Positions 1 through 18,558 of a stretch of 20,048 nucleotides of DNA are shown one piece after another. This DNA is from a virus: IMG/VR virus record IMGVR_UViG_3300044302_004889, positions 1 to 20,048 of that record; one strand, written 5' to 3'. Every line of letters begins with the position of its first letter. Within the stretch, counting starts at the first letter, position 1. The notes under the pieces were generated by a model. It did not search any database, was not told the DNA's origin, and was given only the letters and a program-made list of their open reading frames with translations. The position numbers were made by a program, and so were the translations under genes.

Positions 1-2045
1 AGTCCTGAAACGTAAATTCTTCCATAAAATTCTGGTCTTAACATTTTCTTAGCATAACGAGTTAATAAACCTTTTCTTGGAGTGAAGGTTGTTGGATCGT
101 ATACTAGAGGAGTCATGATAAGTGGAATGTATGGAGAGAATACAGCACCCGCTTCTAAGAACTGACCACCTCTGTATCCTAATAGGATAGTGTTGTCAGT
201 CATGTATGGGTTTTTGTAAACTTGGTATCTACCATTCATTGAACCAGCTTTCTGTACACCAAATGCATAGCTCATTTTAGCAGCATCACCATCTGAGTTA
301 CTAGCAAATCCTGGAATAGATTCGATAATAGTAGCTACAGTTGGAGAACATACCATAAAGTTAGCACCACCTCTAAGAGTTCTTTGGTGAATAATGTTAC
401 TTAACTTTTGAACTTTAGTTCCTAAAGTTTGGAACCATTGTCCTTGAGAATTAAAGAATCCTAATGCAGTTCCAGCACCTGCAGCACTAATATTTTGGTT
501 ATTAATAGCACTCCAGTACTCATCACCAGCACCAGCATCTTCGATTAACATTGCAAGAATTTCTTGGTCTATTTCTACTGAAATATACTCACTCATAATT
601 GAAGTTAATTCAGCTTCTGCATCTAAAGAATGGTAAGCGTTTAAATCTTGAGCGAACTCAGGAGTCCAAACAGCTTTCAATTTCTTAGTTTTAGCAACGA
701 TAGCTTCACTTCTCATTTGAACATTGATTTCTGGAATTGCGATTGGAGCATTTGCAGCATTCGCACCAGTATCCATTTGTTCAAAATCACCTCTGTTATT
801 ATCAGTAGGTTGTAGAGTTTGTAAAACAGTACCTGCAGCATCACCAGCAACAACTGATCCTGATACTACGAAGAAAGAAATGATTGAATCAGCACCTCTA
901 ACATCAGCAGCAACAGCAGCACCTAAAGTAAGTACCATTGCTACAGCAGCACCAACACCGTTAGTACAGTTTGGTCTAGAAGCAACTGAGAAAGTTACTG
1001 TATCACCAGCAACATATCCTGAACCTGGGTTGTTAACTACCACATCAGTAGTAGCACCACCAACAGGACCTGAAAAGTCAACTGTTAAACCAACACCCGC
1101 AGCAGAAGTTGTAGCTGTAGGAGCAACGTTTAAATCTGAAGCACCTGCTACAGAAGCAGAGTCAGTAGTAACATCACCCGCTGGTACAGCAGAAACTGCA
1201 GCAACTGGAGCTGGGAAATAACCACCTGAACTTAAAGCTGTAAATGCAGGATATTGTCTTGATCCATCAGCAGGAGTATTTGTAAAACTTGCTAAATAGA
1301 ATCCTTCAATAGCTGTTGCATCATAAGTAGCAGCTAAGTTAGTAGCTAACATATTTACTTTACTTACATTAGTTACAGTACTGTTATCAGCACCTACACC
1401 TGATGTAGTAAAAGCAAAAGCAGAATCAGCATGCATATCTCTGTAGAAATCAGCAGCACCAACGTTATAAGTAGTAACTGCAACAGCACCTGAAATTAAG
1501 TTTTGCGTTGAGTATCCAAATCTACCAGCTCCATAAAGACCACCTGCAGCAGCGTTACCGAAGCCACTAGTGTTTGTTGGAGTTGCATCTGGAGAAGCTG
1601 TACCATATAAAGATTGTCCAATTGTAAATGGATTTTTCTCTGCATTAGCAGCAGCTTGTGGAGAGTTAACTTGCGTTCCTCCGTATTGGAAGTCTAGATA
1701 AAATACTAGACCAGAAGGTAAGTTCATTGGTTGAACCGAAACAAATTCTTTTGCAGCGATTTGTCCAAATACTTTTCTTACCAATGGTAAAGCAACACCA
1801 GCCCATTGACCTGCAGGACCTGTACCAGCAGTCATAGTTGCTGATCCACCACCTGTTTGAGTGTTCTCTGTTACCAATTGTTTAGCTTGGTTTTCTAAGA
1901 TCATAGACATATTGTTTTTGTCTTGCTCAGAATCCATGCCCTCAAGTAAGCCTGTTTTAGCCCACTTGGACGCTAATCTTGCAGCATCACTTTGTAGTGA
2001 TTTATACGTGTTAGCGCTTTCTAAAAGTGAATTTAATTGTGACAT
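1..2045 (-). CDS. gp23: Major capsid protein gp23 (3' end cut by window edge)
   Basis: This is the T4-type major capsid protein, which forms the hexamers of the head shell. It translates from the ATG at 2045 for 681 codons with no stop before the window edge, so only the last few residues are missing. The C-terminal half is classic gp23: VAKTKKLKAVWTPEFAQDL near residue 450, then YHSLDAEAELTSIMSEYIS, and finally KKMLRPEFYGRIYVSG at the edge. The N-terminal part contains GQWAGVALPLVRKVF and SVQPMNLPSGLVFYLDFQYG. Known gp23 proteins are cut by gp21 near residue 65; here LVTE-N at 57-61 aligns with the T4 site. At 681+ residues it is much longer than T4 gp23 (521). The extra length lies in an Ala/Gly/Thr/Val-rich stretch at about 185-435 that holds NNPGSGYVAGDTVTF. 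Codons are richer in C-ending forms than in neighbouring genes, as expected for a very highly expressed protein. Confidence 0.97.
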   Translation of the reverse strand, partial: MSQLNSLLESANTYKSLQSDAARLASKWAKTGLLEGMDSEQDKNNMSMILENQAKQLVTENTQTGGGSATMTAGTGPAGQWAGVALPLVRKVFGQIAAKEFVSVQPMNLPSGLVFYLDFQYGGTQVNSPQAAANAEKNPFTIGQSLYGTASPDATPTNTSGFGNAAAGGLYGAGRFGYSTQNLISGAVAVTTYNVGAADFYRDMHADSAFAFTTSGVGADNSTVTNVSKVNMLATNLAATYDATAIEGFYLASFTNTPADGSRQYPAFTALSSGGYFPAPVAAVSAVPAGDVTTDSASVAGASDLNVAPTATTSAAGVGLTVDFSGPVGGATTDVVVNNPGSGYVAGDTVTFSVASRPNCTNGVGAAVAMVLTLGAAVAADVRGADSIISFFVVSGSVVAGDAAGTVLQTLQPTDNNRGDFEQMDTGANAANAPIAIPEINVQMRSEAIVAKTKKLKAVWTPEFAQDLNAYHSLDAEAELTSIMSEYISVEIDQEILAMLIEDAGAGDEYWSAINNQNISAAGAGTALGFFNSQGQWFQTLGTKVQKLSNIIHQRTLRGGANFMVCSPTVATIIESIPGFASNSDGDAAKMSYAFGVQKAGSMNGRYQVYKNPYMTDNTILLGYRGGQFLEAGAVFSPYIPLIMTPLVYDPTTFTPRKGLLTRYAKKMLRPEFYGRIYVSG

Positions 2046-2080: not shown

Positions 2081-3253
2081 TTATCCTTTGATGATACCAG
2101 CTAATTTCTGGAATCTCATCACCATCTCATTTGATTCTACAATAGGTTTTTTACTTGGAGCTTTTGGAGTAGAAATGGATTTAGAAGCTCTACCTAAATT
2201 TTCATTTATGTGTTTTGCTTTAGATTTGAATCCTGTACTTACAGTTTCAAATACTAATTTTGCTTCTTTTACATTACTAGCTTTATCAAATGCTTCTAGT
2301 ACTTTTACCTTTTGAGTTTCATTTAAGTTTTTAGATTTGAAGATTTTATTAGTATAAAGTAATTTTGCATTAAGTAAATTGATTTCATTTAATTCTTTTC
2401 TTAAAGTCTCAACAGTAGCATAAGCTTCTTTTAATTCTTCATCTTTTTCTTTATTTTCATCAATTTCTTTTTTAGCATCTGCTTTAGCGTCTTTGATACC
2501 ATCTTTGTATCCTTCTTCTTCAGCATCTGTTCTTGCATCTTCTGCTATGTCAACCGAAGTTTCCATATCATCTTCTACTTCTATTTCACCTTCTTCATCT
2601 ACGTCCACGTCAACGTCATCTTCAAAGTTATCACCAGCTTCAATTTCGCCAGCTCCTACCATATCTTCGATTACGTCTTCTATGAACTTTTTAAGATCTT
2701 CTTCAGACATATCTTCAAGGTCGATTTCTTCGTCCTCGTCTTCCATGTCTTCTTTCTCGTCTTTTTCACCATCAAGGTAGCCTTCTTCCTCGGCATCTGT
2801 ACGTTCGTCCTCTTTCAAGTCCTCTTTTTCGTCTTTCATACCGTCTTTGTAGCCTTCCTCTTCAGCGTCTGTACGAGCATCTTCTTTAAGTTCTGTTTCT
2901 AATTCAGCTAAAATTTCATCTAGATCAGAGTCATCTTCTTTAAGTTTTCGCATTTTTTCAGTTTCGGTCTCAGCTTTGTTATCATACTTTCGATCGTCAC
3001 CTTCTGCTTTTTCTTTTTTAGTCATGTACTCTTTTCCTTCATCCATTTTATCCTCATCAGATTTTTTTGCTTCGTCTACTTTATCATTTGCTTCATCCAT
3101 TTCTTCTTTTTCCATTTCTTCTAACTTTGCAGCTAGCATGGATTTGATTTGTGGTTGAAAAGCTTCTTCTAAAGCAAGCTTAGCATTTGCAATGGCTGAT
3201 TCTTTTACAGTCTTTGCATCGGCAATAGCCTCTTTTAAAAAGTTTCTGTTCAT
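2081..3253 (-). CDS. gp22: Prohead core scaffold protein gp22-like
   Basis: This is the probable internal scaffold on which the gp23 shell assembles, to be degraded later by gp21. It lies exactly between protease and capsid genes, as gene 22 does in T4. The 390-residue product is extremely charged and mostly helical. The N-terminus (MNRNFLKEAIADAKTVKE) resembles the T4 gp22 start, with a protease-like site at I10-A11-D12/A13. The middle (about 100-260) is acidic and carries three copies of RTDAEEEGYxDGxKDxK. The C-terminal third is the most family-like: LLNAKLLYTNKIFKSKNL at about 293-310, then KVKVLEAFDKASNVKEAKLVFET. T4 gp22 is about 270 residues, so this one is enlarged mainly by the acidic repeat region. 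A rare AGGA lies just before the ATG. The name rests on position plus composition and the C-terminal motif, not on an alignment. Confidence 0.87.
   Translation of the reverse strand: MNRNFLKEAIADAKTVKESAIANAKLALEEAFQPQIKSMLAAKLEEMEKEEMDEANDKVDEAKKSDEDKMDEGKEYMTKKEKAEGDDRKYDNKAETETEKMRKLKEDDSDLDEILAELETELKEDARTDAEEEGYKDGMKDEKEDLKEDERTDAEEEGYLDGEKDEKEDMEDEDEEIDLEDMSEEDLKKFIEDVIEDMVGAGEIEAGDNFEDDVDVDVDEEGEIEVEDDMETSVDIAEDARTDAEEEGYKDGIKDAKADAKKEIDENKEKDEELKEAYATVETLRKELNEINLLNAKLLYTNKIFKSKNLNETQKVKVLEAFDKASNVKEAKLVFETVSTGFKSKAKHINENLGRASKSISTPKAPSKKPIVESNEMVMRFQKLAGIIKG
2483..2875 (-). repeat. Three-copy acidic repeat inside scaffold gene
   Basis: Three copies of a 17-residue unit, RTDAEEEGYxDGxKDxK, are encoded at 2825-2875, 2753-2803 and 2483-2533. 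The first two are 24 residues apart, giving a near-perfect tandem; the third lies about 90 residues further on, after a very acidic D/E block. The amino-acid match is tighter than the codon match: synonymous changes separate the copies, which suggests an old duplication under selection rather than a recent slippage product. Confidence 0.85.
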
Positions 3254-3435: not shown

Positions 3436-4044
3436 TTATATTATAGGGCATGTACCATTTGCACAAAGTATTTCTGTTATTATAGAATTTACTTTAGTAT
3501 ATGGATTTTCTTTAGGAATTTCAATTCCTTCTTTTACTAAATGCATAAATGAATCTGGGTTAGAAGGTGTGGATACAAAATCCCAACATAATAATTCAAA
3601 ATCATCTTGTACTTCTTGTACTTCACCCATTGGCTTTAAACTTCCCATACCTCTAGAAGATACACCAACTGTAATTCCACTTTCGATTAATGCTTTTAAT
3701 ATATTTCCTGCTGGTGTTGGTAATAATTCTATTTTTCCTACTACATTATCACCATCCCACCACATATCTTTTATATTATGTGATACATTTTTTAAATTTA
3801 TTATTGTATCATCAGGGTGATCTAATTCACCTAATGCTCTATTTTCATCAACTAATGTTTTGTACTTGTCGATTTCTCTTTCCCATAAATCTTTTGAATA
3901 ATACCTACCATTACCATTTTTTACTTCAGCAGTAGCTAATATTCCCTCAACTAAAGGATTTCCCGATTCTGAAATTTTCTTTTCAGTTAGAGATTTTGGC
4001 ATGGCCGCGAACAGCCTTGTTTCGACTAGTACTTGTTTATCCAT
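3436..4044 (-). CDS. gp21: Prohead core protease gp21
   Basis: This serine protease sits in the prohead core, matures the capsid by cutting gp23 and internal proteins, and digests the scaffold before DNA entry. The 202-residue product has the family layout: NGRYYSKDLWEREIDKY at about 45-61, the catalytic-His segment GELDHP (H76), GVSSRG (S129/S130, nucleophile region) and LLCWDFVSTPSNP (D155). The length matches T4 gp21 (about 212). It lies directly before scaffold and capsid genes, as in T4. The start at 4044 follows an A-rich, SD-less leader seven bases after the preceding stop. Which of the two serines is catalytic cannot be settled without an alignment. Confidence 0.94.
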   Translation of the reverse strand: MDKQVLVETRLFAAMPKSLTEKKISESGNPLVEGILATAEVKNGNGRYYSKDLWEREIDKYKTLVDENRALGELDHPDDTIINLKNVSHNIKDMWWDGDNVVGKIELLPTPAGNILKALIESGITVGVSSRGMGSLKPMGEVQEVQDDFELLCWDFVSTPSNPDSFMHLVKEGIEIPKENPYTKVNSIITEILCANGTCPII

Positions 4045-4051
4045 GTTTGTA

Positions 4052-5224
4052 TTAATTGATTCCGTTAGAATTTAAATTTGAACCTTCATTTGAATTGTCA
4101 TTTGAGTTTTCATTTGACTCTTGATTTGTTTGCTCTTCAAATGTAGTTTTTGATTGACCTACTTTTCTTGGTACCCAATCTTGACCAGATCCATTATTTT
4201 CTTTCCATTTAGTAGAATCCATTTCATCTACTTGTTGTTTATATTTTTTACCACACATTTTTTCATAAAGTTTTTCCATTTTAGCTTTTCTTTTTTCTAA
4301 AATTTTAACTTCTTTTTGTATAGCTTTAATTTTTGATTTATCAAGTAATTCTGCTAAATCATTATCTTCATTTACTAAATTTATTCTTGCTGATTTTGAT
4401 GCTATTACTTCACTTACAGCATTAATTTTAGCTTCCATAGCTACTATTTGTGCTTGTTTATCAATTTCAGCTAATTTAGTTTCAATAGTTTCTTTTTTTA
4501 CTTTTTTAGCTCTTTTTGGTTTTTCACCTAATGGTCCGTTTTCTACTAAATTTACTAATGATATCATTTTATTTTCTTTTAATTTTACTTTTTCCATTTG
4601 GTCAGATTTACTTGCTCTAATACCAGGCCAGTCATCTGTGTATCCTACTTTATCTATACCAAACATAGCATTTTTAACATAATACAAAGGATCAGCACTT
4701 AAATTTTTAGCTACTAATTTTTGTGCTTTTTCTATAGCTTCTCCTAAATCAGCATCAGAAACTGTTTCTCTAACTTTATCCATTTCAAATTTAACACCTA
4801 ATCTAAATTCTTCACCATTTAAATTATCCCAATTTTTTTTATCTTTATAATCAAATCCTTTTGTTTCTAAATCAACTACATCTTTATTAGGTTTTTTAAC
4901 ATCTGCTTTAATTGCTTCATCTTTTTTAGCAGCATCAGATAATGGACCTTCAACACCTGATAATGATTTTGATTCTTCTTTAATAAGATTCATATTATCA
5001 TCAAATATTTTAAACCAATCTGGTTTTTTAAGTGAATCAGTTACTACACCAGCAATGTTTTCAGATAATACTGATCTGTTTAATAGTATTTCTTCTGCTT
5101 GATTAAATGTAGCAGAATTAACTATCATATGTGGATAGCTTCTTTTAACCTCTTTAAGAAAAAGTTCTTTACTACCTTTTCCTTTTTTTATTTGGTTATA
5201 TTGTTCTTGTATTGTTTTTGCCAT
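4052..5224 (-). CDS. Conserved head-region protein, unknown function, Asn/Ser-rich tail
   Basis: This 390-residue soluble protein lies in the portal-to-protease interval, where T4 has its small core proteins gp67 and gp68. The N-terminal part reads YNQIKKGKGSKELFLKEVKR and VNSATFNQAEEIL, a pattern I recall from uncharacterised proteins of marine T4-like phages. Residues about 235-335 are Lys/Glu-rich and probably coiled coil. A Trp-containing segment (GQDWVPRKVGQSKTTFEE) follows, and the last 24 residues are almost entirely Asn, Ser and Glu with repeated SN pairs. It starts one base after the preceding stop and ends seven bases before gp21, so it is co-transcribed with head genes. A prohead core or minor scaffold role is inferred from position only. 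Confidence 0.8.
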   Translation of the reverse strand: MAKTIQEQYNQIKKGKGSKELFLKEVKRSYPHMIVNSATFNQAEEILLNRSVLSENIAGVVTDSLKKPDWFKIFDDNMNLIKEESKSLSGVEGPLSDAAKKDEAIKADVKKPNKDVVDLETKGFDYKDKKNWDNLNGEEFRLGVKFEMDKVRETVSDADLGEAIEKAQKLVAKNLSADPLYYVKNAMFGIDKVGYTDDWPGIRASKSDQMEKVKLKENKMISLVNLVENGPLGEKPKRAKKVKKETIETKLAEIDKQAQIVAMEAKINAVSEVIASKSARINLVNEDNDLAELLDKSKIKAIQKEVKILEKRKAKMEKLYEKMCGKKYKQQVDEMDSTKWKENNGSGQDWVPRKVGQSKTTFEEQTNQESNENSNDNSNEGSNLNSNGIN

Positions 5225-7140: not shown

Positions 7141-9054
7141 TTATTGTTCCTTAATATTTGATTCATCAAGGAGCGAACTTTTCGCCTTATTTTGCTCAAA
7201 TACCAATTTCTTTTCAGAAGGGATTGATTTTAACATACCCTGATGTTGTAAGTAATTTGAGTTACTTTCTAATGCTAATGGACTTTTATTAGGATCATTT
7301 ACATCTTTTTTCATTCCTTGGGCACCTAATCTATCTTTTCCAAAATTATCATCTTGTGTATTTCTTTTAGATGCTTTTTCTGCTGGTCTTCCTAATGGGG
7401 TTGTATCTTTTGTTCCATCTTTATAACCATCAGGAACATTACCCGGGTCTGTATACATTCTACCTTTACCATATAATGAAGCTAAATCATGAGGTGTTCC
7501 ATATGATTTCCCAGTTTCAATAGGATCATTACCTTCTGCTTCAATTTGAGAAATTCTAAATTGACGTTTAGCATCTTCTCTTACTAAATCCCTATATTCT
7601 TCATAATTATCTTCACTTAAATGGAATATATTCTCATAAATCCATTCTGTTGGCAATAATTTATTTTCCATCATTTGGGCAGCTAAATCAACTTTTTCTT
7701 TCATTAATGCTATTCTTTCTTGATCATAAATGATTGAAGGATTAGTTAATGATAATTCAAAATTTCCTAATTGTTCATCTCTATAACCTTGAGTATATAA
7801 ATGAACTAATGCTATTTTATATAATTCAGAAACAACTATTCTTTGAATTCTTTCTATTGTACGAGCAAATCTAATATCTTGAGCTGCTAATGTAGCTTTA
7901 CCTTCTACATTTTCATCATACCCCATAAATGCTTTTGGAACTTTTAAAGCTGCAAATAATTTATCTCTTAAATATTCAACATCTTCAATTCCATTCCATT
8001 GTAATCCATTTAAATTTTCTATTTTTGTTGCTTGATCATTTCCTCTAACAGGTATATAATAATCTTCTAATATATTTTGCATATTATATTTTAAATTATA
8101 TTCACCTGTTTTTTCATCTATAAATGGAGTTCTTTTTAATTTACTTAAAGTTTTTTCCATAAATGCATCTACTTCATTTGGTGGAATAGCTCCTACATTC
8201 ATATAAAATATACGTTTTTCAGGTGCACGTACAATTCTATGAATTAACATTGCATCTTCCATTAAAGTATATTGCTTAAATAATTTTCTTGCTGGTTCAA
8301 TATATGATCTACCATAAGGTAAGAAATTCATATCAGATAATAATCTAAAATGAGCCATTTCATAATTATCAAATATAATAGAACTTGCTTGATTTCCTGC
8401 ATTTGGTACATTATAATATCCATAAGTTGATGTTGAAACCCCATCTGGTTCAAATCTAAATCTAACATCTTGAGGATTTGTTTCTTCGCCTGTTTCAGGA
8501 TCAGTACCTATGCCTCCTTCTACTCTTTCAATATGAAAAGCTGTATAAGGGATAACATTATACACCCCAAATTTTTCAGCTATTTCTAATTTTAAAAAGA
8601 AATCTCCATACTTACACATATTACGTATCCATGACCAAAGATTAAATTCTATATTTAATACATCATAAAATAAATTATATAATATTTTTTGTATATCTTC
8701 ATCTGCAGATTTAATTGATAAAACTTCACCCATATCATTTTTTAGAGTTGCTTCATCTGCTACAATATCTAATGCTGAAGCTACTATAGCATCCATATCC
8801 ATTGCATCATAATCTGAATATAATAAAGGACGCATAACTTGATAGTTAAATGCATTTTGTTGTCCATATATTGAAGTACCTGAGTTTGAGTAAATTCTAT
8901 TAAATCTATCTACTAAGGCATTTGTTTCTAAATTTCCAGTTCGTTGTGCTTGATTTACATCAAACACTTTAAGTTGATCACCCCCAACATTACGAATTAT
9001 TACATCTGTTGAAAATAATCTTCTTAGTCTTGAAAATAAACTTGTATTTGCCAT
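7141..9054 (-). CDS. gp20: Portal vertex protein gp20
   Basis: This is the dodecameric portal ring that starts prohead assembly, docks the terminase and later joins the neck. The 637-residue protein shows family hallmarks: MRPLLYSDYDAMDMDAIVAS near 74-93, SALDIVADEATLKND, FNLWSWIRNMCKYGDFFLKL, RIVRAPEKRIFYMNVGAIP and KVPKAFMGYDENVEGKATL. It follows the terminase gene directly. T4 gp20 is about 524 residues; the surplus is a hydrophilic, low-complexity C-terminal tail of about 126 residues, rich in Lys, Asp, Asn and Pro. That tail contains GYKDGTKD, similar to the scaffold repeat. The ATG at 9054 lies in an A-rich leader with a TATTTATA motif 13 nt upstream. Confidence 0.97.
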   Translation of the reverse strand: MANTSLFSRLRRLFSTDVIIRNVGGDQLKVFDVNQAQRTGNLETNALVDRFNRIYSNSGTSIYGQQNAFNYQVMRPLLYSDYDAMDMDAIVASALDIVADEATLKNDMGEVLSIKSADEDIQKILYNLFYDVLNIEFNLWSWIRNMCKYGDFFLKLEIAEKFGVYNVIPYTAFHIERVEGGIGTDPETGEETNPQDVRFRFEPDGVSTSTYGYYNVPNAGNQASSIIFDNYEMAHFRLLSDMNFLPYGRSYIEPARKLFKQYTLMEDAMLIHRIVRAPEKRIFYMNVGAIPPNEVDAFMEKTLSKLKRTPFIDEKTGEYNLKYNMQNILEDYYIPVRGNDQATKIENLNGLQWNGIEDVEYLRDKLFAALKVPKAFMGYDENVEGKATLAAQDIRFARTIERIQRIVVSELYKIALVHLYTQGYRDEQLGNFELSLTNPSIIYDQERIALMKEKVDLAAQMMENKLLPTEWIYENIFHLSEDNYEEYRDLVREDAKRQFRISQIEAEGNDPIETGKSYGTPHDLASLYGKGRMYTDPGNVPDGYKDGTKDTTPLGRPAEKASKRNTQDDNFGKDRLGAQGMKKDVNDPNKSPLALESNSNYLQHQGMLKSIPSEKKLVFEQNKAKSSLLDESNIKEQ

Positions 9055-9066
9055 GTTCTATTTTTT

Positions 9067-9074
9067 TATAAATA
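9067..9074 (-). promoter_or_regulatory. TATTTATA motif upstream of portal gene
   Basis: The coding strand reads TTTAATATTTATAAAAAAA right after the terminase stop; the core 9074-9067 is 13 nt from the portal ATG. The string also contains TATAAAAA, one base from the T4 late promoter. It is nearly identical over 13 bases to the copy at 16558. A promoter here would leave only a very short leader, which an SD-independent host might tolerate. Confidence 0.48.
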
Positions 9075-10649
9075 TTAAATTAACCAACTTATGTCGTGGT
9101 CTTTTCCACCTATGTTGGTTTTATATGGATTTTCTACATTAGAATTACCTTTATAACCACCTTTATATGGAGTTTTATTACTTTTTATATTATCTAATGC
9201 AGCCCTTGCCATATCTAAACTTTGTTGTTGAAACTTCAATGAAGTATCACGTAGGAACATACCAATCCCAAATGACATAACCAAGTCATCGTTATAACCT
9301 GTTTGAGCTTCTGGTCTTCCATTTTTCCAAACGAATACTTTCATTTCTTCTAATAAACGTTTTGAACGAATTGTTACTGATCTATCACCTACAAATTCTC
9401 TAAATTTATTAATACAAAGAGGTCTTGTTCTCATTGACATAGTAAAACCAGGAACCATTTCTGAATTTCCTTCATATACTCTTAAATAAGATTCTGCTGT
9501 CATTTGATCAGATTTTGGGGATTGATATAAATTTCTATATCCTCTTTCTTGTATAGCATCTAATGTTGCCCATCCTATGTTTGCATTTTCTACTACTAAC
9601 ATAGCATTATTATATTCTGTAGCTAATCCTGTTAAAAAATATCCAAATTCTTTAGGTGGCATTTGTCCTTTATACTCAGCTACCTGTGTGTTTGTTTGAA
9701 TATCCATAACATGACATGCCGAATAATCTTTACCATCTCCTCTTGCTACATCAGCTACTACCATATATTCTCTAGAATAATCTGCTGATTCCCAAATCCA
9801 TAAATTTTGATCTACTCCTCTTCTTTCCATAGGATCTTGGATAGTTGATTCTTTAACAAAATCGATCCATTCTGAGTAAAATACTATATCACCAGATGTA
9901 CTAAAATCACAATCACATTCTTGAGCTGCTAATCTAGGATCACCTAATAATTCATCTTGTCTATCTCTCCATGTTTGATCTCTTTCAGGATGAACATCCC
10001 AAGGTAATCTTATAGGTAAAAAATCATTTTGGGAATTCTCAGCTGATACCCATGTTTTGTGAAACCAATTTCCTGTTCCATATGGTGTACTTAATACTAT
10101 TGCTCCACCACCTGTTGCTAGAGTTTGCTGTGCTGATGCCCATATTTCTCCAATTTGTTCAATAAAAGCTGCCTCATCAATTAGTAGAAGAGATACTGCT
10201 TCTGATCTACCAGCATCACTACTTGCTGATGTTGCTTTAATTATAGAACCATTACTAAGTCTTAATGATAATTTATTATTTTCTTCTGCATTTATTTTTA
10301 ACCAAGAAGGTAAACTATCATACATAAATTTTACCTTTGTAACCATATTACGAGCTGTTTCTTGTTTAGTCGCAATACAAAGTACATTTTTATCTTTATG
10401 AAATAACATTAACCATAAAGAATATCCTGCTGATAGAGTGGATATACCTAATTGTCTTGATTTTAAGATAATAGAATAAGGATTATCTCTCCAAAGATGT
10501 AATACTTTTTCTTGAAAAGGATATAAATTAAATAATATTCTTCCTCTTTGAGGATGTTGAATGTTACAGTATTTTTTCATAAAATGAGCAGGATCTTTAG
10601 CACATTTTATATATTCATGTCTTATTATTTTTTTTAAATCCGAACTCAT
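9075..10649 (-). CDS. gp17: Terminase large subunit gp17
   Basis: This is the packaging motor: an N-terminal ATPase pumps DNA through the portal and a C-terminal RNase H-fold nuclease cuts the concatemer. The 524-residue product carries all expected motifs. The deviant Walker A is SRQLGIST (64-71), Walker B is LLLIDEA (154-160, D158 and E159), and the coupling motif is LSTPYGTGN (186-194). Nuclease acids are D300 in VVADVARGDGKD, E354 in VVENANIGW and D454/D455 in YNDDLVMSFG. The length is slightly below T4 gp17 (610), with a short C-terminus. It begins one base after the preceding coiled-coil gene and ends 20 bases before the portal start. Sheath and tube genes do not separate it from the portal, unlike in T4. 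Confidence 0.98.
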   Translation of the reverse strand: MSSDLKKIIRHEYIKCAKDPAHFMKKYCNIQHPQRGRILFNLYPFQEKVLHLWRDNPYSIILKSRQLGISTLSAGYSLWLMLFHKDKNVLCIATKQETARNMVTKVKFMYDSLPSWLKINAEENNKLSLRLSNGSIIKATSASSDAGRSEAVSLLLIDEAAFIEQIGEIWASAQQTLATGGGAIVLSTPYGTGNWFHKTWVSAENSQNDFLPIRLPWDVHPERDQTWRDRQDELLGDPRLAAQECDCDFSTSGDIVFYSEWIDFVKESTIQDPMERRGVDQNLWIWESADYSREYMVVADVARGDGKDYSACHVMDIQTNTQVAEYKGQMPPKEFGYFLTGLATEYNNAMLVVENANIGWATLDAIQERGYRNLYQSPKSDQMTAESYLRVYEGNSEMVPGFTMSMRTRPLCINKFREFVGDRSVTIRSKRLLEEMKVFVWKNGRPEAQTGYNDDLVMSFGIGMFLRDTSLKFQQQSLDMARAALDNIKSNKTPYKGGYKGNSNVENPYKTNIGGKDHDISWLI

Positions 10650-11331: not shown

Positions 11332-11799
11332 TTAGAGCATTGATTCAAGCTCTTTTTTAATTTTGGTTAATTTTACTAATCTATCTCTTAATTTTAATTT
11401 ATCTCCACCTTCAGATTCTTTCCATTTTTTAGCTGTTTTTTTTAATTCGGTAGAAATTTGTTGTAGCTTACTAGCTATTACTGATACTGAATCCTTAGAG
11501 GCTCCTTTAAGTTGAGATGTTGAAGGTTCTTCTTCATCATTTTCTTTATTTTCAAAAGCCATTGATTCTGGGTCACTGTGAACATATAAATCTGTTGTAT
11601 CATCTACATCCTTCTTATCAACATATCCATCATCTTGATTATCTCCTTCATCAACTAAACCTGCTTTTTTTGCTAATTCAGCACTTCTTTCTAATTCATC
11701 GTTATAATCTTTTTGAGCTTTAACATCTTTATCTGTTACTGCTTCTAATATATCAATTATTTCTTCTCTTATTGAACTTTTTAATTCCGATTTTTTCAT
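11332..11799 (-). CDS. Acidic hypothetical protein, possibly encapsidated
   Basis: This 155-residue product is not recognised. The N-terminus MKKSELKSSIREEIIDILEA is helical and contains I17-L18-E19/A20, which fits the T4 prohead protease consensus. I recall KKSELKxxIREEI-type starts in several proteins of phages from marine Bacteroidetes. The middle (about 50-100) is acidic and disordered, with DEGDNQDDGYVDKKDVDDTT and ENKENDEEEPSTS. The C-terminal third is a basic coiled coil, IASKLQQISTELKKTAKKW to LTKIKKELESML. Gene 16 (small terminase) also precedes gene 17 and has coiled coils, but two membrane-protein genes intervene here and no DNA-binding motif is seen, so that name is not supported. 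Confidence 0.7.
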   Translation of the reverse strand: MKKSELKSSIREEIIDILEAVTDKDVKAQKDYNDELERSAELAKKAGLVDEGDNQDDGYVDKKDVDDTTDLYVHSDPESMAFENKENDEEEPSTSQLKGASKDSVSVIASKLQQISTELKKTAKKWKESEGGDKLKLRDRLVKLTKIKKELESML

Positions 11800-11823: not shown

Positions 11824-12354
11824 TCATAAAGAAATCGTTCCTTTAACTAATTTTATACGTTCTTCCGTTGAACCTTTAATTTCAATAAAATTTTTAATTT
11901 TATGTCTATATTTAATAATTAATAATTGAATGCTTTCATCAATTTGTTTTCTATATTCTTTATTAGTTTCTCTTACTCCATTATTTTCAATTTCAACTCC
12001 TTCAGGAGAAACATAAAAAATATAATCATATTGATCTAACATATGAGCAGCAAAATCACAAAAATCATTAGCTTCAAAATAATACATTGATTTAGAACAT
12101 TTAGCAAACGCCATTACATCAATAATAGTTCTATCTGTTATTATATTATCTTGCATTAATTCACTAGCTCTTTCTGCTAAAAATACTGCTTGACCTTTTA
12201 CAGTGGAATCAGTATTCAAAGGAATACCCATTTCCATTAAATATTTAGAACGCTCTGTTCTAAATTTATAATCTTTAAATTCAGGTAATTCAGCTAAAGC
12301 ATTAACTAAAGTTGTTTTACCTACTGACATTGTACCACAAAAACCTATTTTCAT
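11824..12354 (-). CDS. P-loop nucleotide/nucleoside kinase, NadR/AAA_28-like
   Basis: This 176-residue ATP-binding enzyme is probably a small-molecule kinase. The P-loop is GTMSVGKTT at 7-15, at the extreme N-terminus. ITDRTIIDVMAFAK at 72-85 supplies the Asp-Arg pair typical of NadR-like kinases. The YDYIFYVSPEGV strand at 109-120 and the lid-like NNGVRETNKEYR at 124-135 follow, and the end reads FIEIKGSTEERIKLV. This order matches the ribosylnicotinamide-kinase domain of NadR and the PF13521 (AAA_28) group. The NadR adenylyltransferase and repressor domains are absent. Substrate cannot be read from sequence: nicotinamide riboside or a deoxynucleotide are both possible. It starts one base after the cupin stop. 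Confidence 0.85.
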   Translation of the reverse strand: MKIGFCGTMSVGKTTLVNALAELPEFKDYKFRTERSKYLMEMGIPLNTDSTVKGQAVFLAERASELMQDNIITDRTIIDVMAFAKCSKSMYYFEANDFCDFAAHMLDQYDYIFYVSPEGVEIENNGVRETNKEYRKQIDESIQLLIIKYRHKIKNFIEIKGSTEERIKLVKGTISL

Positions 12355-12355
12355 A

Positions 12356-12763
12356 TTAAAACGGTAAATCTAATGGATCTAATTGTGAAGATCCCATTCC
12401 TACTCTATAACTATCACTATCAAAGTGTTGTGTTGATACCTCGAATATACAACTCCCTTCTTCAAGAGCCAACATTTGGTGAGGTTGTCCTGGCATTAAG
12501 TGAATACAATCGCCTTCTCTTACTACCACTTTATGTTGTTGTGCTGTTTCAGTATCTATGTAAGTATATTGAAATTCGCCTTTAGAAATATACCATGCTT
12601 CATCTTTTAACAAATGATAATGCATTGAAAAAGACTTATCTTTATGAAATACTAATAGTTTACCACAATAAAATTCATTATTAATAATCCATAACTCATG
12701 TCCCCAAGCTTTTTCATGTCTTTCTCCTTTATAAGGCATTGCTTGTAAAGTATGTTCTCTCAT
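12356..12763 (-). CDS. Cupin protein, mannose-6-phosphate isomerase type II-like
   Basis: This 135-residue single-domain cupin is probably metal-binding. Motif 1 is H48-x-H50-x4-E55-x6-G62 in MHYHLLKDEAWYISKG, and motif 2 is GDCIHLMPGQPHQM with H95. These supply the usual metal ligands. The opening EKAWGHELWIINNEFYCGK and the ending FEVSTQHFDSDSYRV resemble the cupin domain of GDP-mannose pyrophosphorylase/mannose-6-phosphate isomerase fusions (ManC/AlgA C-terminal part) and small stand-alone relatives. No nucleotidyltransferase domain is present, so it may be an isomerase-like or sugar-binding cupin acting in glycan or sugar-nucleotide metabolism. It sits one base from genes on both sides. 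Enzymatic activity is inferred from motifs only. Confidence 0.85.
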   Translation of the reverse strand: MREHTLQAMPYKGERHEKAWGHELWIINNEFYCGKLLVFHKDKSFSMHYHLLKDEAWYISKGEFQYTYIDTETAQQHKVVVREGDCIHLMPGQPHQMLALEEGSCIFEVSTQHFDSDSYRVGMGSSQLDPLDLPF

Positions 12764-12764
12764 A

Positions 12765-13040
12765 TTAATTTCTATATGTTTGACCTTTAGGGGCTGATTG
12801 TTTATACCAAGGCAATCCTTCTCTTTCTTTCATTATTTCTTTAAATGTAGCTTCATCATACTCAATTCCTCCTAAAAAATATCCTTTTTTAAATTCACTA
12901 TCTTTCGATAAGGGAACTATTGCAGGTTTATCATATCTGTGATGTTTAAAATGTTCCTCGCCTTCCATTTTAATTAAATAATGTCTAGCACCTTTAAATT
13001 TTATAACTTTTTCTTCAAATAATTTTTTGTCTTTACTCAT
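12765..13040 (-). CDS. Small protein with a degenerate HRxDGPA-type repeat, unknown function
   Basis: This 91-residue, basic, soluble protein has a central HFKHHRYDKPAIVPLSKD followed by KKGYFLGGIEYDEATFKEIM. That order resembles the HRxDGPA...WYxNG...F repeats I recall from hypothetical proteins of large phages and some bacteria, here as a single divergent copy. The tail EGLPWYKQSAPKGQTYRN is Pro/Tyr-rich. It begins four bases after the dehydrogenase stop and ends one base before the cupin start, so all three are probably made together. No catalytic motif is visible. Confidence 0.7.
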   Translation of the reverse strand: MSKDKKLFEEKVIKFKGARHYLIKMEGEEHFKHHRYDKPAIVPLSKDSEFKKGYFLGGIEYDEATFKEIMKEREGLPWYKQSAPKGQTYRN

Positions 13041-13044
13041 AACT

Positions 13045-14379
13045 TTAATTTTTAATTAATAATTGTTCTGCTACTAATGTGCCTTGTGCTCCTGATACTG
13101 TGATACCTCTGGCACTTAAGGCATCTCCTACAAAATGAACATCAGGATATTCTTTTAAACTTAAATTACTATAATCTACTAATGGTTCAGGTGATAAATA
13201 TTTTACTTCTGGTACGTAAATTCCCCAATCATCTTTAAGTGTTGGAAATACTTTTTTCATATCTTCAATAAAATTATCTATATAATCATAATAACCTTTA
13301 AATGATTTTTTAATTTCCTCTAATGAATTAATAGGCATAGCATCAACTATATCACCTTCACTTGTCATTCCTCTTTTACGTGATGGAGAATAATATAAAC
13401 CTGAATGGGTTTTACGGGCAAATCTGCCTTGTCCTTTAGAAGTATCAAACCAAGTTTTATTTACCTTTTGAACTAATTCTCTAGACCAATCAAAAGGTTT
13501 TTTAATACCTCTAATTTCCATTAAAATACCAAAATTAGTCATATCATTTTTATACTTCATATCTTTTTTAGCATGTCCATTGTAACTAACATCTCCATAA
13601 GTTTGCTCAACAGCAACATAAGCTGCATTATTATTTGTGCAAAATGATCTTAATGATACACCTTCATCATCAAATTTACGATATAATTTAAAATCGTAAC
13701 TTACATCAATTAATTTTTGAAAGTGTTTTTGTGGAGCTTCAAATCTAACACCTATTTGTACTGGTTTAGATTCTGTAGCTAATTCATATTTTTCAGCTAA
13801 TTTTTTACCAAAATCAATACCTGATTTACCAACCCCAAATATAAGTTTATCATAAGGCATTGTATATAAATCTGTGTATACTTCTTTTTTTTCAAAATCA
13901 ATATCAGTTACTTTTTCTTCCCATCTAAAGTTTACACCATTATCCACTAAATGTTTATACCAATTTTTACCTATTTCATGTAAATAATCAGTTCCTACAT
14001 GCCATACAGGGAATAATCTTAAACCAAAATAAGGTTTAATAAATTCTGGTTCTGCTACTGGATTAGAGCATTGAACTTCTTCTGGTTTAGGGTGAAAACG
14101 TTTGAAATTTTCTATTACCTGATCCATTAACTCCATTGCTTTTTCATCACCAGTATATTTAGATAAATGACCTCCAATTGAAGTATGATATGTTAATTTA
14201 CCATCAGACCAACCACCAGCTCCTAAGAATCCAGTCATTACTTCTTCAGGTAGCCTTTTATTAGGATCTTTACCCATATCAATGATGGTTATATGTCCAT
14301 CAAATTTATTATCTACTAATTTAGTGGCAGCATTAATTCCTGCTACTCCTGCTCCTACAATTACAACGTGTTTTCTCAT
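13045..14379 (-). CDS. FAD-dependent dehydrogenase, COG2509-like
   Basis: This 444-residue flavoprotein oxidoreductase has a Rossmann dinucleotide-binding start (VVIVGAGVAGINAA, G9/G11/G14), with the acidic ribose-binding residue at the end of strand 2 in TIIDMGKD. GAGGWSDGKLTYHTSIGG at 53-70 matches the SDGKx signature of the uncharacterised COG2509 dehydrogenases. A second FAD motif, FVGDALSARGITVSGAQGT at about 416-434, precedes the C-terminal helix. LIFGVGKSG at about 180-188 fits the central FAD/NAD(P)-fold junction. The whole family fold appears intact, with no frameshift. The substrate is unknown. It follows a strong terminator and heads the small protein-cupin-kinase series. Its place within a phage structural region is unusual, and auxiliary metabolism is the likeliest role. 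Confidence 0.88.
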   Translation of the reverse strand: MRKHVVIVGAGVAGINAATKLVDNKFDGHITIIDMGKDPNKRLPEEVMTGFLGAGGWSDGKLTYHTSIGGHLSKYTGDEKAMELMDQVIENFKRFHPKPEEVQCSNPVAEPEFIKPYFGLRLFPVWHVGTDYLHEIGKNWYKHLVDNGVNFRWEEKVTDIDFEKKEVYTDLYTMPYDKLIFGVGKSGIDFGKKLAEKYELATESKPVQIGVRFEAPQKHFQKLIDVSYDFKLYRKFDDEGVSLRSFCTNNNAAYVAVEQTYGDVSYNGHAKKDMKYKNDMTNFGILMEIRGIKKPFDWSRELVQKVNKTWFDTSKGQGRFARKTHSGLYYSPSRKRGMTSEGDIVDAMPINSLEEIKKSFKGYYDYIDNFIEDMKKVFPTLKDDWGIYVPEVKYLSPEPLVDYSNLSLKEYPDVHFVGDALSARGITVSGAQGTLVAEQLLIKN

Positions 14380-14504: not shown

Positions 14505-16172
14505 TTAATAATCATCATCTTCATCATCATAGTAATCATCATAATCATCCTCATAATCTTCTTCATCTTCATATTCAGATGTGTAAGATAACATATCTTC
14601 ATTTGATGGAGTATAATTACCATTTTTTGCTTCAACAAAATCAACTATTTGTTTTAATGCCATTTTAGTTGCTCTTTCATATGTTTGCTCTTCATCTCCT
14701 GATGATTGCATAATTTTAGTGAATATGCTTTGGAGTGTTGATTGAATTGCTAATGGAATATCTTTTGAATTAATTAAAAATGAATGAGCAGGACCTGCTG
14801 TTTCTGTACCATATCCTTTGTAGAAGAAATCCCCATCATTGTAATAACGATAGATTATTTTATTAATTGCTCTTAACATTTCGCCTTCAATAAATTCAGA
14901 ATTACCTTGTCCCGGTACTAATTCGTCATATAAGACATTATTTCTTTTTTCTAATTCACCACCTACCCATTCTTTTATTGGCTCACTAAAGTAATCATCT
15001 GCTCTTGTCTCTAAATCTTCCATTTCTTCATCAGACATTTTACCTTTCATAAATATTTTATCCATATCTACTTCTTGGTATCCACTTAAAATACCATCAA
15101 GTACTTTAACAAATGAATCTTTCATTTTAGAATTTAAAACTCCTTGATCTATTTGGTTTCTAAGTGATTTTACTAAAGCAACTTCATTTGATTCTAGACT
15201 ATAACCTTCAGTTAATTTAAAATCAACAATATCTTTTTGAAGTTGTTTTACTGGTTTAACAATTGGAGCAATATCAGCACCTTCATTTTTAGCAAATGGA
15301 TTAGGCATGTCTGAAACTCTTCTAAATTCTTTAGCATGTACACGTGCCATTAAAGCTGATTTGCGGTTATCAGTTTTAGTATAAAATGATTCTAATGCAT
15401 CTAATATTTCATCATATGAGTATTTATCTGCTATTGCTTGGATTAGATCGAATGATTTTGAATCTACATCTTCATTTGCTAAAGGTTTAATTGTCGTTGA
15501 CATAAAATTCCTTTCTTCAGGTAAATCGTCCCACTTTTTCCCAACATATATTTCAGCATCATCAGGATCTTTAAATACTGTTAATAGAGAATCCATTTGT
15601 TGTTCAGCATCCATTCTACTCCACATTTTACTATCTACTTTCCTATCACTAGCTTCATTTAAGCTTCCATAAGGAAAGTTACTAGGATTGTATCCTAATG
15701 TATAGTCTTCATTATAATCATAAATGTCACCTTTACTATTAACAGTTACTATTCCATTACTTTCTCCATTAACATAAACAGTATATAAAGGGTTATCATT
15801 TATATCAAATTCTTCAAAAGATACATCTACTTCTCCATCACCCCCCATAGAATCAAGAATAGCACCTTCAATTTGTCCTTCTATATTTTGAGCCCTCATC
15901 TCATCATCTTCGTATTTACCATCTCCTACAGAAGTACCATCAACTTCATATCTATCAGGAGCATCAAACATTATTGAACCCATAGCTTCTTCATCTCCTT
16001 CATTAACTTTTTTACCTTGTTTAGCTTCATATGCTTTTTTAACACTTTCCAATGTTGGTAAAGGTTCACCTGATTTTCTAGTATCATACCCAGGTGCACT
16101 TTCATTTAATAGTTCAGCATCCTTATGTAATCTACCTTCAGCTATATATTTTTTTAAATCAAATTTGTCCAT
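14505..16172 (-). CDS. Putative encapsidated protein with capsid-targeting-like N-terminus
   Basis: This 555-residue, strongly acidic protein has no recognised family. The first residues, MDKFDLKKYIAEGRL, resemble the T4 capsid-targeting peptide MKTYQEFIAEA, with a protease consensus site I10-A11-E12/G13. The next protein upstream starts almost the same way. The body is mixed: a Glu/Asp-rich region at about 55-170 including FDINDNPLYTVYVNGES, a helical part with PIVKPVKQLQKDIVDFKLTE at about 295-315, and ADDYFSEPIKEWVGGELEKR near 395. The last 25 or so residues are nearly all Asp, Glu and Tyr. It starts one base after its neighbour's stop and is followed by the terminator at 14411. Packaging into the head is inferred from the N-terminus. 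Confidence 0.82.
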   Translation of the reverse strand: MDKFDLKKYIAEGRLHKDAELLNESAPGYDTRKSGEPLPTLESVKKAYEAKQGKKVNEGDEEAMGSIMFDAPDRYEVDGTSVGDGKYEDDEMRAQNIEGQIEGAILDSMGGDGEVDVSFEEFDINDNPLYTVYVNGESNGIVTVNSKGDIYDYNEDYTLGYNPSNFPYGSLNEASDRKVDSKMWSRMDAEQQMDSLLTVFKDPDDAEIYVGKKWDDLPEERNFMSTTIKPLANEDVDSKSFDLIQAIADKYSYDEILDALESFYTKTDNRKSALMARVHAKEFRRVSDMPNPFAKNEGADIAPIVKPVKQLQKDIVDFKLTEGYSLESNEVALVKSLRNQIDQGVLNSKMKDSFVKVLDGILSGYQEVDMDKIFMKGKMSDEEMEDLETRADDYFSEPIKEWVGGELEKRNNVLYDELVPGQGNSEFIEGEMLRAINKIIYRYYNDGDFFYKGYGTETAGPAHSFLINSKDIPLAIQSTLQSIFTKIMQSSGDEEQTYERATKMALKQIVDFVEAKNGNYTPSNEDMLSYTSEYEDEEDYEDDYDDYYDDEDDDY

Positions 16173-16173
16173 A

Positions 16174-16452
16174 TTAGTGGTATTTTTCTATATCTTCTGT
16201 ATCCATTAAGTACATATCCTCTCTTTGATCATATACTACTGACATATCTCTTAAAGCAATTCCTTCATCGTTAAATAAATCTTCTATAGGTACACCATCT
16301 ACATTTTCTTCAAATCCATAATCATCTCTTAATTCATCCATCATCCCTCCTTCACCTTTTTTGATGTTTATTTCAATGTCTTCAATAGGTCCACTTACTT
16401 CTTTTAATAGTTTACCTTCAGCTAAATATTTTTTATAATTAAAGTTATCCAT
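16174..16452 (-). CDS. Small acidic protein with capsid-targeting-like N-terminus
   Basis: This 92-residue product opens MDNFNYKKYLAEGKLLKE and shares KKY(L/I)AEG(K/R)L with the 555-residue protein encoded next. The cleavage-like site L10-A11-E12/G13 is at the same residue number. After it the sequence is acidic with no recognised domain: PIEDIEINIKKGEGGMMDEL and DGVPIEDLFNDEGIALRD. The two genes are also similar at DNA level over their first 50 or so bases but diverge afterwards, suggesting a shared or duplicated leader module on different cargo. It is separated by one base from the downstream gene. Confidence 0.75.
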   Translation of the reverse strand: MDNFNYKKYLAEGKLLKEVSGPIEDIEINIKKGEGGMMDELRDDYGFEENVDGVPIEDLFNDEGIALRDMSVVYDQREDMYLMDTEDIEKYH

Positions 16453-16583: not shown

Positions 16584-17423
16584 TTACCATTTTTTACAAG
16601 ACCAATATCTAGCCATTGTTTTAGGTCCTGGATTATCGCAATTGTGTCTTGCTCTAAATGCTGATCTTGCTTTAGGATTTGACTTTCTTATTTTCATGGT
16701 TTTTTGTCCAGCTTTTTTAGCTGTAGTTCCTCCATGCCCAAAATTAACTTTTTTTACTTTAATTGTACCATCAGCATTTTTTTTACCTGAGTTAACATAA
16801 ACTTTAAATTTCTTACTATCACCTCTCATTGGTTTATTTAAAGTAACTGTTTTACCTTTATATTTTGCTTCAGTTATATTTTCATCAATAATTTCCATAT
16901 CTAGTACTTCTTGAATAGACATATATGATTCATCTAAATCTTTATTGATTTTATCTCCTGCTTTTTTAGCTGATTTGTAAGCTTTTGTACCTGGTTTGGA
17001 CATACCACTTTTGCCTACTCTTTTTCTTTTAGCACGTATATTAGCCCATAATCCCGGTTTTTCTTCATTTATAATTTTATCTTTTACATACATTATATAT
17101 GATCCATCTTCTAAAATAGGAAAATCTAAAGGTACTTTTTTACCTTCAAATATACCAAAATGACCTAAATCCGTTTCTGTTAAAATTGTTAAATCAACTG
17201 GGTTGTTAAACCCTAAGATACCTCTACTATATAATGATCTTGCTTCTGCAATTAAATCAAAGTATTCACGTGAACCCCATTCACATACTGGCTCATTAAG
17301 CGGTTTATTATTGTCTATATGGTATTTTAACGCCTCAGACAACATAGTCCTAGACGCTTTATTTTCATTAAGTACTAACGCATTATCTTTAGTTTCGCAT
17401 GTATTACATCCACAATTGCACAT
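16584..17423 (-). CDS. Conserved phage protein with N-terminal Cys cluster and C-terminal Cys/Trp domain
   Basis: The 279-residue product has no assigned function. The frame is open to ATG 17468, but that start overlaps the upstream gene. The ATG at 17423, eight bases past that stop and behind an A-run, is preferred and opens MCNCGCNTCET, a tight C-x-C-x-C-x2-C cluster that could bind metal. A central region has KPGLWANIRAKRKRVG and a KPGTKAYKSAKKAG basic stretch, a pattern I recall from hypothetical phage proteins. The C-terminus (about 185-279) has YKGKTVTLNKPMRGDSKKFK and ends ARHNCDNPGPKTMARYWSCK, a conserved tail seen in unknown virion-region proteins of marine T4-like phages. A structural or DNA-associated role is likely, but that is inference. 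Confidence 0.82.
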   Translation of the reverse strand: MCNCGCNTCETKDNALVLNENKASRTMLSEALKYHIDNNKPLNEPVCEWGSREYFDLIAEARSLYSRGILGFNNPVDLTILTETDLGHFGIFEGKKVPLDFPILEDGSYIMYVKDKIINEEKPGLWANIRAKRKRVGKSGMSKPGTKAYKSAKKAGDKINKDLDESYMSIQEVLDMEIIDENITEAKYKGKTVTLNKPMRGDSKKFKVYVNSGKKNADGTIKVKKVNFGHGGTTAKKAGQKTMKIRKSNPKARSAFRARHNCDNPGPKTMARYWSCKKW

Positions 17424-17430
17424 ATTTTTT

Positions 17431-18558
17431 TTATTTAATTCCGTTTGTAAAAGTTGTTGGAGATACATTTTTCACAGATATAGGACCCGAAAATGATAAA
17501 GGATTTTCATCTATATATGCTTCCATTTCTCCTGCTGATTTTACCAAATAATCTCCAAAATTAGATGTTGTATCAACAAATATAAAATCACTTACTCCCT
17601 CTGCATTAACATAATTATTAGCATAAATTTTTTGAAATGCTTTTCTTAATTCTAATGAACTATCTAATATATCTGATGTTAATACTTTATCAATATTATC
17701 TGCTCTGCCATACATTTCTTTAGCTAGATCTTTTGATAGTTTTAATATTTCTGCTTTATCTTCTCCTCTTTCAATTAAATCAGGAATAAATAAATCAGGT
17801 CTTACTTTATTAGCTATATCTTCATATTCATCTACTTTTTTTAGTATAGGAATATTTCTTGAAATTGATTGATCTCGTTTTCCTAATCTACCTGATGTAC
17901 CTTTTACTTCTAAATAATTACCATCCCAATTTAAATCACCTTTATCACCAGTCATCATTTTAACATCTTTTAAAAGTAAAGCTAAAGCTATTTCTGCTTT
18001 ACCAACACCTCTACCTCCTTCAGTACCCCCAAAATTTATTAAATCCCTTAATGAATTAGCTGAGACCCCTGATTTAGCTAAATCGTTTATTAAATTAGAT
18101 TTCCCATCTTTTTTTAAACCAGCTAATGAAAAATGATTTCTCATAACATATGATTGAAAATTATCAACATCATCATTATTAACTAATATATTAAATAATT
18201 CTTGTGCAGCATCAACTCCAGCTAATGTAGAATCATTTATATCTGCATTATTAGCTATTTGTGTGAAGAATTTTTGTTTAGGTCTATTTTTAATATATTT
18301 TTTTAAATATGTTATAGCTTCATCATCACCTTCAAGATTTTTAAGTAAAACTCCAATATCTTCTCTATCAATAGATGCTAATTCTTCATCTGGAAATAAA
18401 GATAATTGAGTATCTTCAACTCTATCTTCAGCATCTTCAGTTATAAATTTTGAAAACATTTCAAATAATAATTCCTTTTCTTTAGGATTATTCATATCTG
18501 GGTATCCTTTAGGAAATTTATATGCTACTCTGTTTATATATTTAGTTATATTATCCAT
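17431..18558 (-). CDS. Conserved phage protein with PD-(D/E)XK nuclease-like motif
   Basis: The 375-residue protein opens KYINRVAYKFPKGYPDMNNP, a start I recall from uncharacterised proteins of marine T4-like phages. Residues about 175-230 look like a PD-(D/E)XK nuclease core. GVGKAEIALALLL (E189) is followed by KGDLNWDGNYLEVKGTSGRL, placing D208 and E217-x-K219 at normal spacing for the catalytic Asp and Glu-x-Lys. The rest is helical, and the C-terminal half ends in a region with FIFVDTTSNFGDYLV. No second DNA-binding domain is recognised. The ATG shares one base with the upstream stop (TAATG), implying coupled translation. Nuclease activity is suggested by motif only; a structural protein with a dead fold is possible. 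Confidence 0.82.
   Translation of the reverse strand: MDNITKYINRVAYKFPKGYPDMNNPKEKELLFEMFSKFITEDAEDRVEDTQLSLFPDEELASIDREDIGVLLKNLEGDDEAITYLKKYIKNRPKQKFFTQIANNADINDSTLAGVDAAQELFNILVNNDDVDNFQSYVMRNHFSLAGLKKDGKSNLINDLAKSGVSANSLRDLINFGGTEGGRGVGKAEIALALLLKDVKMMTGDKGDLNWDGNYLEVKGTSGRLGKRDQSISRNIPILKKVDEYEDIANKVRPDLFIPDLIERGEDKAEILKLSKDLAKEMYGRADNIDKVLTSDILDSSLELRKAFQKIYANNYVNAEGVSDFIFVDTTSNFGDYLVKSAGEMEAYIDENPLSFSGPISVKNVSPTTFTNGIK

Follow-up and report, generated by a model that had tools for sequence, protein, structure and literature searches.

The locus analyzed here raises the question of why two neighboring proteins of a T4-like phage begin with nearly the same short peptide. The window, that is, the whole stretch of DNA analyzed (20,048 nucleotides), is a complete 20 kb viral record whose minus strand encodes a T4-like head module (Table 1), and relative to transcription both genes sit 4–6 kb upstream of the terminase. 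The original prediction held that this peptide, read also in the scaffold, sends cargo proteins into the head, where gp21 trims them. The N-termini on which it rested were all confirmed: the 555-aa protein (14505-16172, minus strand) starts MDKFDLKKYIAEGRL, the 92-aa protein (16174-16452, minus strand) starts MDNFNYKKYLAEGKL, and the scaffold (2081-3253, minus strand) starts MNRNFLKEAIADAK, with IAEG, LAEG, and IADA, respectively, at residues 10–13; ILE/A was likewise found at residues 17–20 of the protein encoded at 11332-11799 on the minus strand (a slash marks a cut site throughout, predicted in the phages studied here). The leader shared by the two window proteins has the consensus MD[NK]F[DN]xKKY[IL]AE/G over 12–13 residues. 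Judged from sequence, it is probably a capsid-targeting propeptide that would work like the T4 capsid-targeting sequence (CTS) and be cut by the S77 protease of the phage, targeting and cleavage both being inferred; we put the probability of this reading at roughly 0.83.

Table 1. Coordinates of the head module, leaders, and cargo proteins in the window
Feature	Positions	Strand	Basis or remark
Major capsid protein (gp23)	3..2045	(-)	Truncated by contig end; homologous to immuto gp23
Predicted gp23 processing site VTE60/N	1866..1874	(-)	Equivalent of T4 FLTE/A
Scaffold (gp22 position)	2081..3253	(-)	N-terminus MNRNFLKEAIADA, gp22-like, Asp at P1
S77 prohead protease (gp21 type)	3436..4044	(-)	Pfam PF03420 9.4e-31; PHROG 207 2.1e-59
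Core-type protein, between portal and protease	4052..5224	(-)	L104 homologue contains leader
Leader-like internal stretch LKE/NK-MISLVNLVE/NG in core-type protein	4541..4582	(-)	
Portal (gp20)	7141..9054	(-)	Position and homology to immuto head module
Large terminase (gp17)	9075..10649	(-)	Terminase comparison with cultured phages
Second leader type MKKSELKSSIREEIIDILE/A on 155-aa acidic protein	11743..11799	(-)	
Body of 555-aa protein, modular cargo with acidic tail	14505..16136	(-)	
Helical domain, residues 395-535 of 555-aa protein	14568..14990	(-)	Predicted all-helical
Leader MDKFDLKKYIAE of 555-aa protein	16137..16172	(-)	Cut predicted before G13
Body of 92-aa protein	16174..16416	(-)	
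Leader MDNFNYKKYLAE of 92-aa protein	16417..16452	(-)	Cut predicted before G13

The sharing of the leader extends far beyond the two cargo proteins in which it was first noticed. DNA pattern scans yielded at least 279 distinct proteins with the leader, nearly all from IMG/VR contigs, and at least 116 groups of bodies behind it, with 80 singletons among the matches listed. Both counts are lower bounds from two IMG/VR scans of at least 120 stretches each, one of them without the AEG requirement. The carriers are T4-like phages from aquatic samples, and among 84,980 genomes of bacteria and archaea a very similar pattern occurred in only three contigs, each of them a short contig of a metagenome-assembled genome. 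A tblastn search of cultured phages with the 21-aa leader peptide alone gave no match, probably owing to the shortness of the query, and a literature search turned up neither an account of such leaders in environmental phages nor the string KYLAEG.

Conservation was analyzed with one representative per body group (n = 112, among the matches listed). F4, K8, and an aromatic residue 9 were invariant in all 112, the invariance of F4 and aromatic 9 being partly built in because the search patterns demanded them. L/I10 was present in 111 representatives and E12 in 107, the residue after E12 being G in 58, N in 41, and S in 7; in the loci listed without the AEG requirement, E12 was retained in 74 of 78. 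Conservation extends about 6 residues beyond the predicted cut, and leader information is at background level beyond about residue 18. Of the leader cores among the matches listed, 271 fall within the first 9 residues, and gene fusions or N-extended ORFs account for most of the 20 that do not. Leader genes of one locus are always on the same strand, and seven of them are on a single 112 kb contig (G001, locus L003). Since leader genes often stand in tandem (a gap of no more than 100 bp separates 66 of 98 consecutive pairs among the matches listed), the common start might be merely a duplicated or recombining segment of DNA at the beginning of tandem genes, without function at the protein level. 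However, the residues are fixed while synonymous codons vary at nearly every leader position, indicating that the constraint acts on the peptide; the leader also spans all of the body groups and persists within fused proteins, sometimes without its Met. The codon variation speaks against a DNA-level origin, and we give this explanation practically no credence.

Comparison with T4 revealed a closely similar layout. The CTS of T4 IPII and IPIII (MKTYQEFIAE/A, cut by gp21) is also a short N-terminal peptide common to unrelated bodies, with an aromatic residue at position 4 and at P4, I/L at P3, A at P2, E at P1, and a small residue at P1'; both proteins start MKTYQEFIAEA, and a T4 record numbers the IPII precursor from -10 to 90. 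In IPIII, targeting depends on residues 4 and 7 and processing on residues 8 and 10; gp21 cleaves after L/I-x-E (PMC9026906). The leader counterparts of these four functional positions are F4, Y/F9 (P4), L/I10 (P3), and E12 (P1). The proposed match to the T4 peptide therefore stands for sequence and layout but not for exact position, as T4 cuts after residue 10 and the leader is predicted to be cut after residue 12. Unlike the 10-residue T4 CTS, the leader has 12 residues before the predicted cut, a different sequence (MDNFDLKKYLAEGKL), and frequent Asn at P1'. The T4 internal proteins are basic (PMC9026906), whereas the bodies described here are mostly acidic, far more numerous, and also fused into longer chains. 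The layouts are alike, and the peptides are too short to separate common descent from convergence. The propeptides of T4 gp22 (MLKEQLIAE/A) and gp24 (MAKINELLRE/S) resemble other leader types of these phages (MISLIQLLKE/A, and the scaffold AIAE/A or AIADA); they stand on single head proteins, while the MISLxxLLKE type is common to several accessory bodies. In the ejection-protein propeptides of SPN3US and phiKZ, the cut in head proteins similarly follows a short motif whose last residue is Glu, and two SPN3US paralogues have an identical 15-residue start (PMC5694885). Those are giant phages with an S80 protease, and the shared start lies on homologous paralogues rather than on unrelated bodies.

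The leader is linked to the prohead protease and to head genes. As in T4, the leader-bearing phage has an S77 protease together with a T4-like head module, and this protease (3436..4044) is presumed to be the enzyme that cuts the leaders. Of 18 leader-bearing contigs, 14 encode the S77 protease; the remaining 4 also lack a terminase and are thus probably fragments missing that module. When six genomes were pooled and the broader motif [ILVF]xE[AGSN] was used, a site at residues 5–30 was found in 76 of 200 head-region genes (38%) versus 73 of 679 others (11%, p=4e-17), and the excess was much weaker at residues 35–60 (33 of 187 head-region genes versus 64 of 603 others). The p values are strong but not exact, as the compared genomes are related and the uncultured contigs carry simple longest-ORF gene calls. 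The closest cultured phage is Flavobacterium phage immuto_2-6A, whose terminase is 58% identical to that of the window and whose head module is the same. In its annotated genome, 13 of 34 head-region proteins have [IL]xE[AGSN] within their first 30 residues, versus 12 of 197 others (p=2.5e-6). Its leader genes (immuto26A_3, 179, 194, and 195) are of the Asn form (MENFDLKKFLVENKLT); they end in VE/N or TE/N with a second [LI]xE downstream, unlike the AE/G of the window. They are annotated as hypothetical except immuto26A_194 (cobalamin adenosyltransferase PduO), which starts MADNFNLRSFLTEN. It had been stated in advance that finding the peptide equally often on cytoplasmic enzymes would refute the idea; no annotated replication or nucleotide-metabolism enzyme in the complete immuto genome carries the leader. 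A few leader or leader-like genes lie away from the head region, at L252 1803-2318 (immuto), which adjoins the DNA polymerase, and at G001 9044-9607 and G003 117366-117704.

Analysis of the scaffold indicated that it does not belong with the two cargo proteins. The suggestion that it matches the gp21 consensus was wrong because it has Asp at P1, which in the T4 targeting sequence prevents cleavage while leaving targeting intact (PMC9026906). Nor does it share the same leader: it fails the layout MxxF[DN]x[KR]K[YF][LI]xE, and its gp22-type N-terminus MNRNFLKEAIADA aligns with the scaffolds of relatives and resembles T4 gp22 (MLKEQLIAEA), although the type of site is held in common. The scaffold peptide (IADA) is homologous to the T4 gp22 N-terminus and is not the same leader. 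The scaffold (2081-3253, minus strand) also contains three repeats like [AE]RTDAEEEGYxDGxKDE, a repeat that recurs behind the leader in the L104 core-type protein. The scaffold C-terminus has a further motif, [FM]QKLAGII, which recurs close to the N-terminus in immuto proteins (L250 16676-17140) and is there followed by TE/S.

The leader was also found within a core protein. The L104 homologue (8286) of the core-type protein at 4052-5224 has the leader inside it, as VKE/NK-MDNFDLKKYLAE/GKLSKE/NK, and the leader-like internal stretch of the window protein is the corresponding part; the MISLxxLLKE type to which that stretch belongs stands at the N-terminus of kinase bodies as a leader. In gp23, the Glu of Q[LI][VI]-x-E is conserved and stands at the place of the T4 cut FLTE/A. 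The residue after this Glu is N, S, Q, A, T, G, I, or E in the clade, suggesting that Asn or Ser after Glu is plausible for these phages. A correlation within each phage between the P1' residues of gp23 and leader was considered and dropped, since the window combines gp23 VTE/N with leaders in AE/G, and immuto gp23 VSE/A with leaders in VE/N. The protease N-termini mostly have [LIV]xE sites too.

Predicted cut sites are conserved beyond the leader itself and support its removal by the protease only indirectly. Among the matches listed, a second [ILV]xE at residues 19–28 was found in 40 of 70 Asn-form leaders versus 14 of 174 Gly leaders (p=1e-15); the two forms may be different lineages, so this contrast is not fully independent evidence. 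Where leader bodies occur inside longer proteins without a leader, an [ILVM]xE[AGSN] site lies at 47 of 81 non-redundant junctions, counted within about 26 residues upstream, against an expectation of 19% from random windows of the same proteins. An initial count of 18 internal sites standing ahead of leader-type bodies had been selected on the motif, a bias from which the 47/81 count is free. At many fusion junctions, F..KKY is gone and LAE/G plus RLLKE is kept, as expected if a chain needs targeting once but cutting at each junction. One junction in L065 reads LSNLAE/GRLLKEDYDKESLIKAL, and the third module there is a separate leader gene in L068. The L065 ORF (264 aa, reverse strand) has three modules with LAE/G at residues 12, 106, and 188, and its second leader has Ile in place of Met, indicating a true fusion. 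The junctions bear on whether the leader is cut at all: it could instead be an uncut docking peptide for the neck, tail, baseplate, or an intracellular phage structure, its LAEG resembling a gp21 site by coincidence. No experiment excludes this, and conservation does go on beyond residue 12. However, an uncut peptide poorly fits fusions that keep E12 and the [LI]xE spacing while losing F..KKY, sites enriched in head genes rather than other late genes, and a leader present in a prohead-core protein, and we consider it improbable.

The leader is modular, as the same bodies also stand behind alternative short N-termini: a kinase body behind MISLIQLLKE/A, and DUF5872 behind MDRIKETVQSVLE/K. Further alternative leaders on other bodies are MKELYKFRQYLAE/GKL, MKYLKKFNEFITE/A, and MKKSELKEIIKSQFLAE/A, the last being the type to which the protein starting at 11799 belongs. 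Several of these resemble the T4 gp24 (MAKINELLRE/S) and gp22 (MLKEQLIAE/A) starts. No description of leader swapping or of cargo polyproteins was found for T4. In the capsid-targeting model, the residues before the site (F4, K8, and aromatic 9) would bind the scaffold core during head assembly and bring the attached protein into the prohead, where the S77 protease would cut after E12 in [LI]xE/[GNSA]. Leaders with Asn after E12 might be cut alternatively at the second [ILV]xE about 12 residues downstream. The mature protein would remain inside the head after the cut. The leader would act as a module, attached to more than 100 unrelated bodies and exchangeable for other short leaders with a similar site, and bodies could be chained into polyproteins whose junctions carry such sites. 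Every sequence-level test that we ran favored capsid targeting, and delivery, trimming, and virion presence remain to be demonstrated: leader-driven targeting, cleavage, and the presence of the bodies in virions are inferred without virion proteomics or a cleavage or packaging assay. What the sequences themselves establish is the common leader, its modularity, its linkage to the protease and head genes, and the conserved site. The acidic bodies, the conservation beyond the cut, and the few leader genes outside the head region speak against a targeting propeptide.

The bodies themselves are mostly of no known function. Database relatives of the 92-aa protein match its first 19–35 residues only and then diverge, and no relative of its body (16174..16416) was found outside the leader region. 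The 555-aa protein has extra [IL]xE sites at E24, E173, and E322, and in L036, L040, L154, and L200 its domain at residues 395-535 stands by itself as a leader cargo. The AlphaFold model of this domain (14568-14990) is confident (pLDDT 88.7); it had no significant match among solved structures and one, without a name, among viral models. At residues 22-50, the 555-aa protein has a second shared module after the leader, LLNESAPGYDTRKxGEPLPTLESVKxAYEAK, which several other phages carry too; in these, LLNE/[NS] is kept while the first site has often disappeared (GEKS, SART). Pfam and PHROGs identified few known families among 121 leader proteins, including a Zeta-toxin-type kinase (5.5e-18), DUF5872, and an AAA domain, and gave no match to T4 internal proteins (IPI-III, Alt); PADLOC likewise gave 0 matches among the 121. 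Tad5 was rejected as a cargo identity, its Pfam E value of 0.0076 being too weak to trust. One common body has relatives among phage proteins whose annotation is high-potential iron-sulfur protein.

The composition of the bodies leaves room for a different fate after targeting and cleavage. They are mostly acidic (median pI 4.8, with 18% above 8, among the matches listed), as is the tail of the 555-aa protein; the leader occurs within a core-type protein, and long members have many internal [LI]xE sites. These features would suit bodies that are mainly assembly or core parts, degraded or expelled before packaging like T4 gp67 and gp68 and never delivered. The very high turnover of bodies (at least 116 groups, 80 singletons listed) better fits accessory cargo, however, and some bodies have enzyme-like folds such as the Zeta-type kinase. 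We regard an assembly role as unlikely on the whole while keeping it as an alternative to retained cargo.

If the leader does mark retained cargo, its 12 residues would allow sequence by itself to reveal what the heads of uncultured T4-like phages probably contain, and more than 100 uncharacterized protein groups, most without a Pfam or PHROGs match, would become candidates for traveling with the genome into the host. The T4 targeting principle, known for a handful of enterobacterial phage proteins, would extend to phages near a Flavobacterium-infecting relative. Ejection of the bodies into the host and functions in takeover or anti-defence are speculative. A broader possibility, which we hold only tentatively, is open-ended cargo delivery in one T4-like clade, in which interchangeable leaders, rapidly exchanged bodies, and polyproteins cut in the head would supply early takeover or anti-defence factors on ejection.

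Two further parts of the window lie near the leader genes. Between the cargo genes and the terminase, 11824-14379 on the minus strand likely holds metabolic genes, by eye P-loop kinase-like, cupin-like, and FAD oxidoreductase-like. The 294-aa protein encoded at 16584-17468 on the minus strand has a C-terminal domain (PHROG 7595) that is conserved: several head-cluster proteins contain it, and in L030 it serves as a leader cargo.
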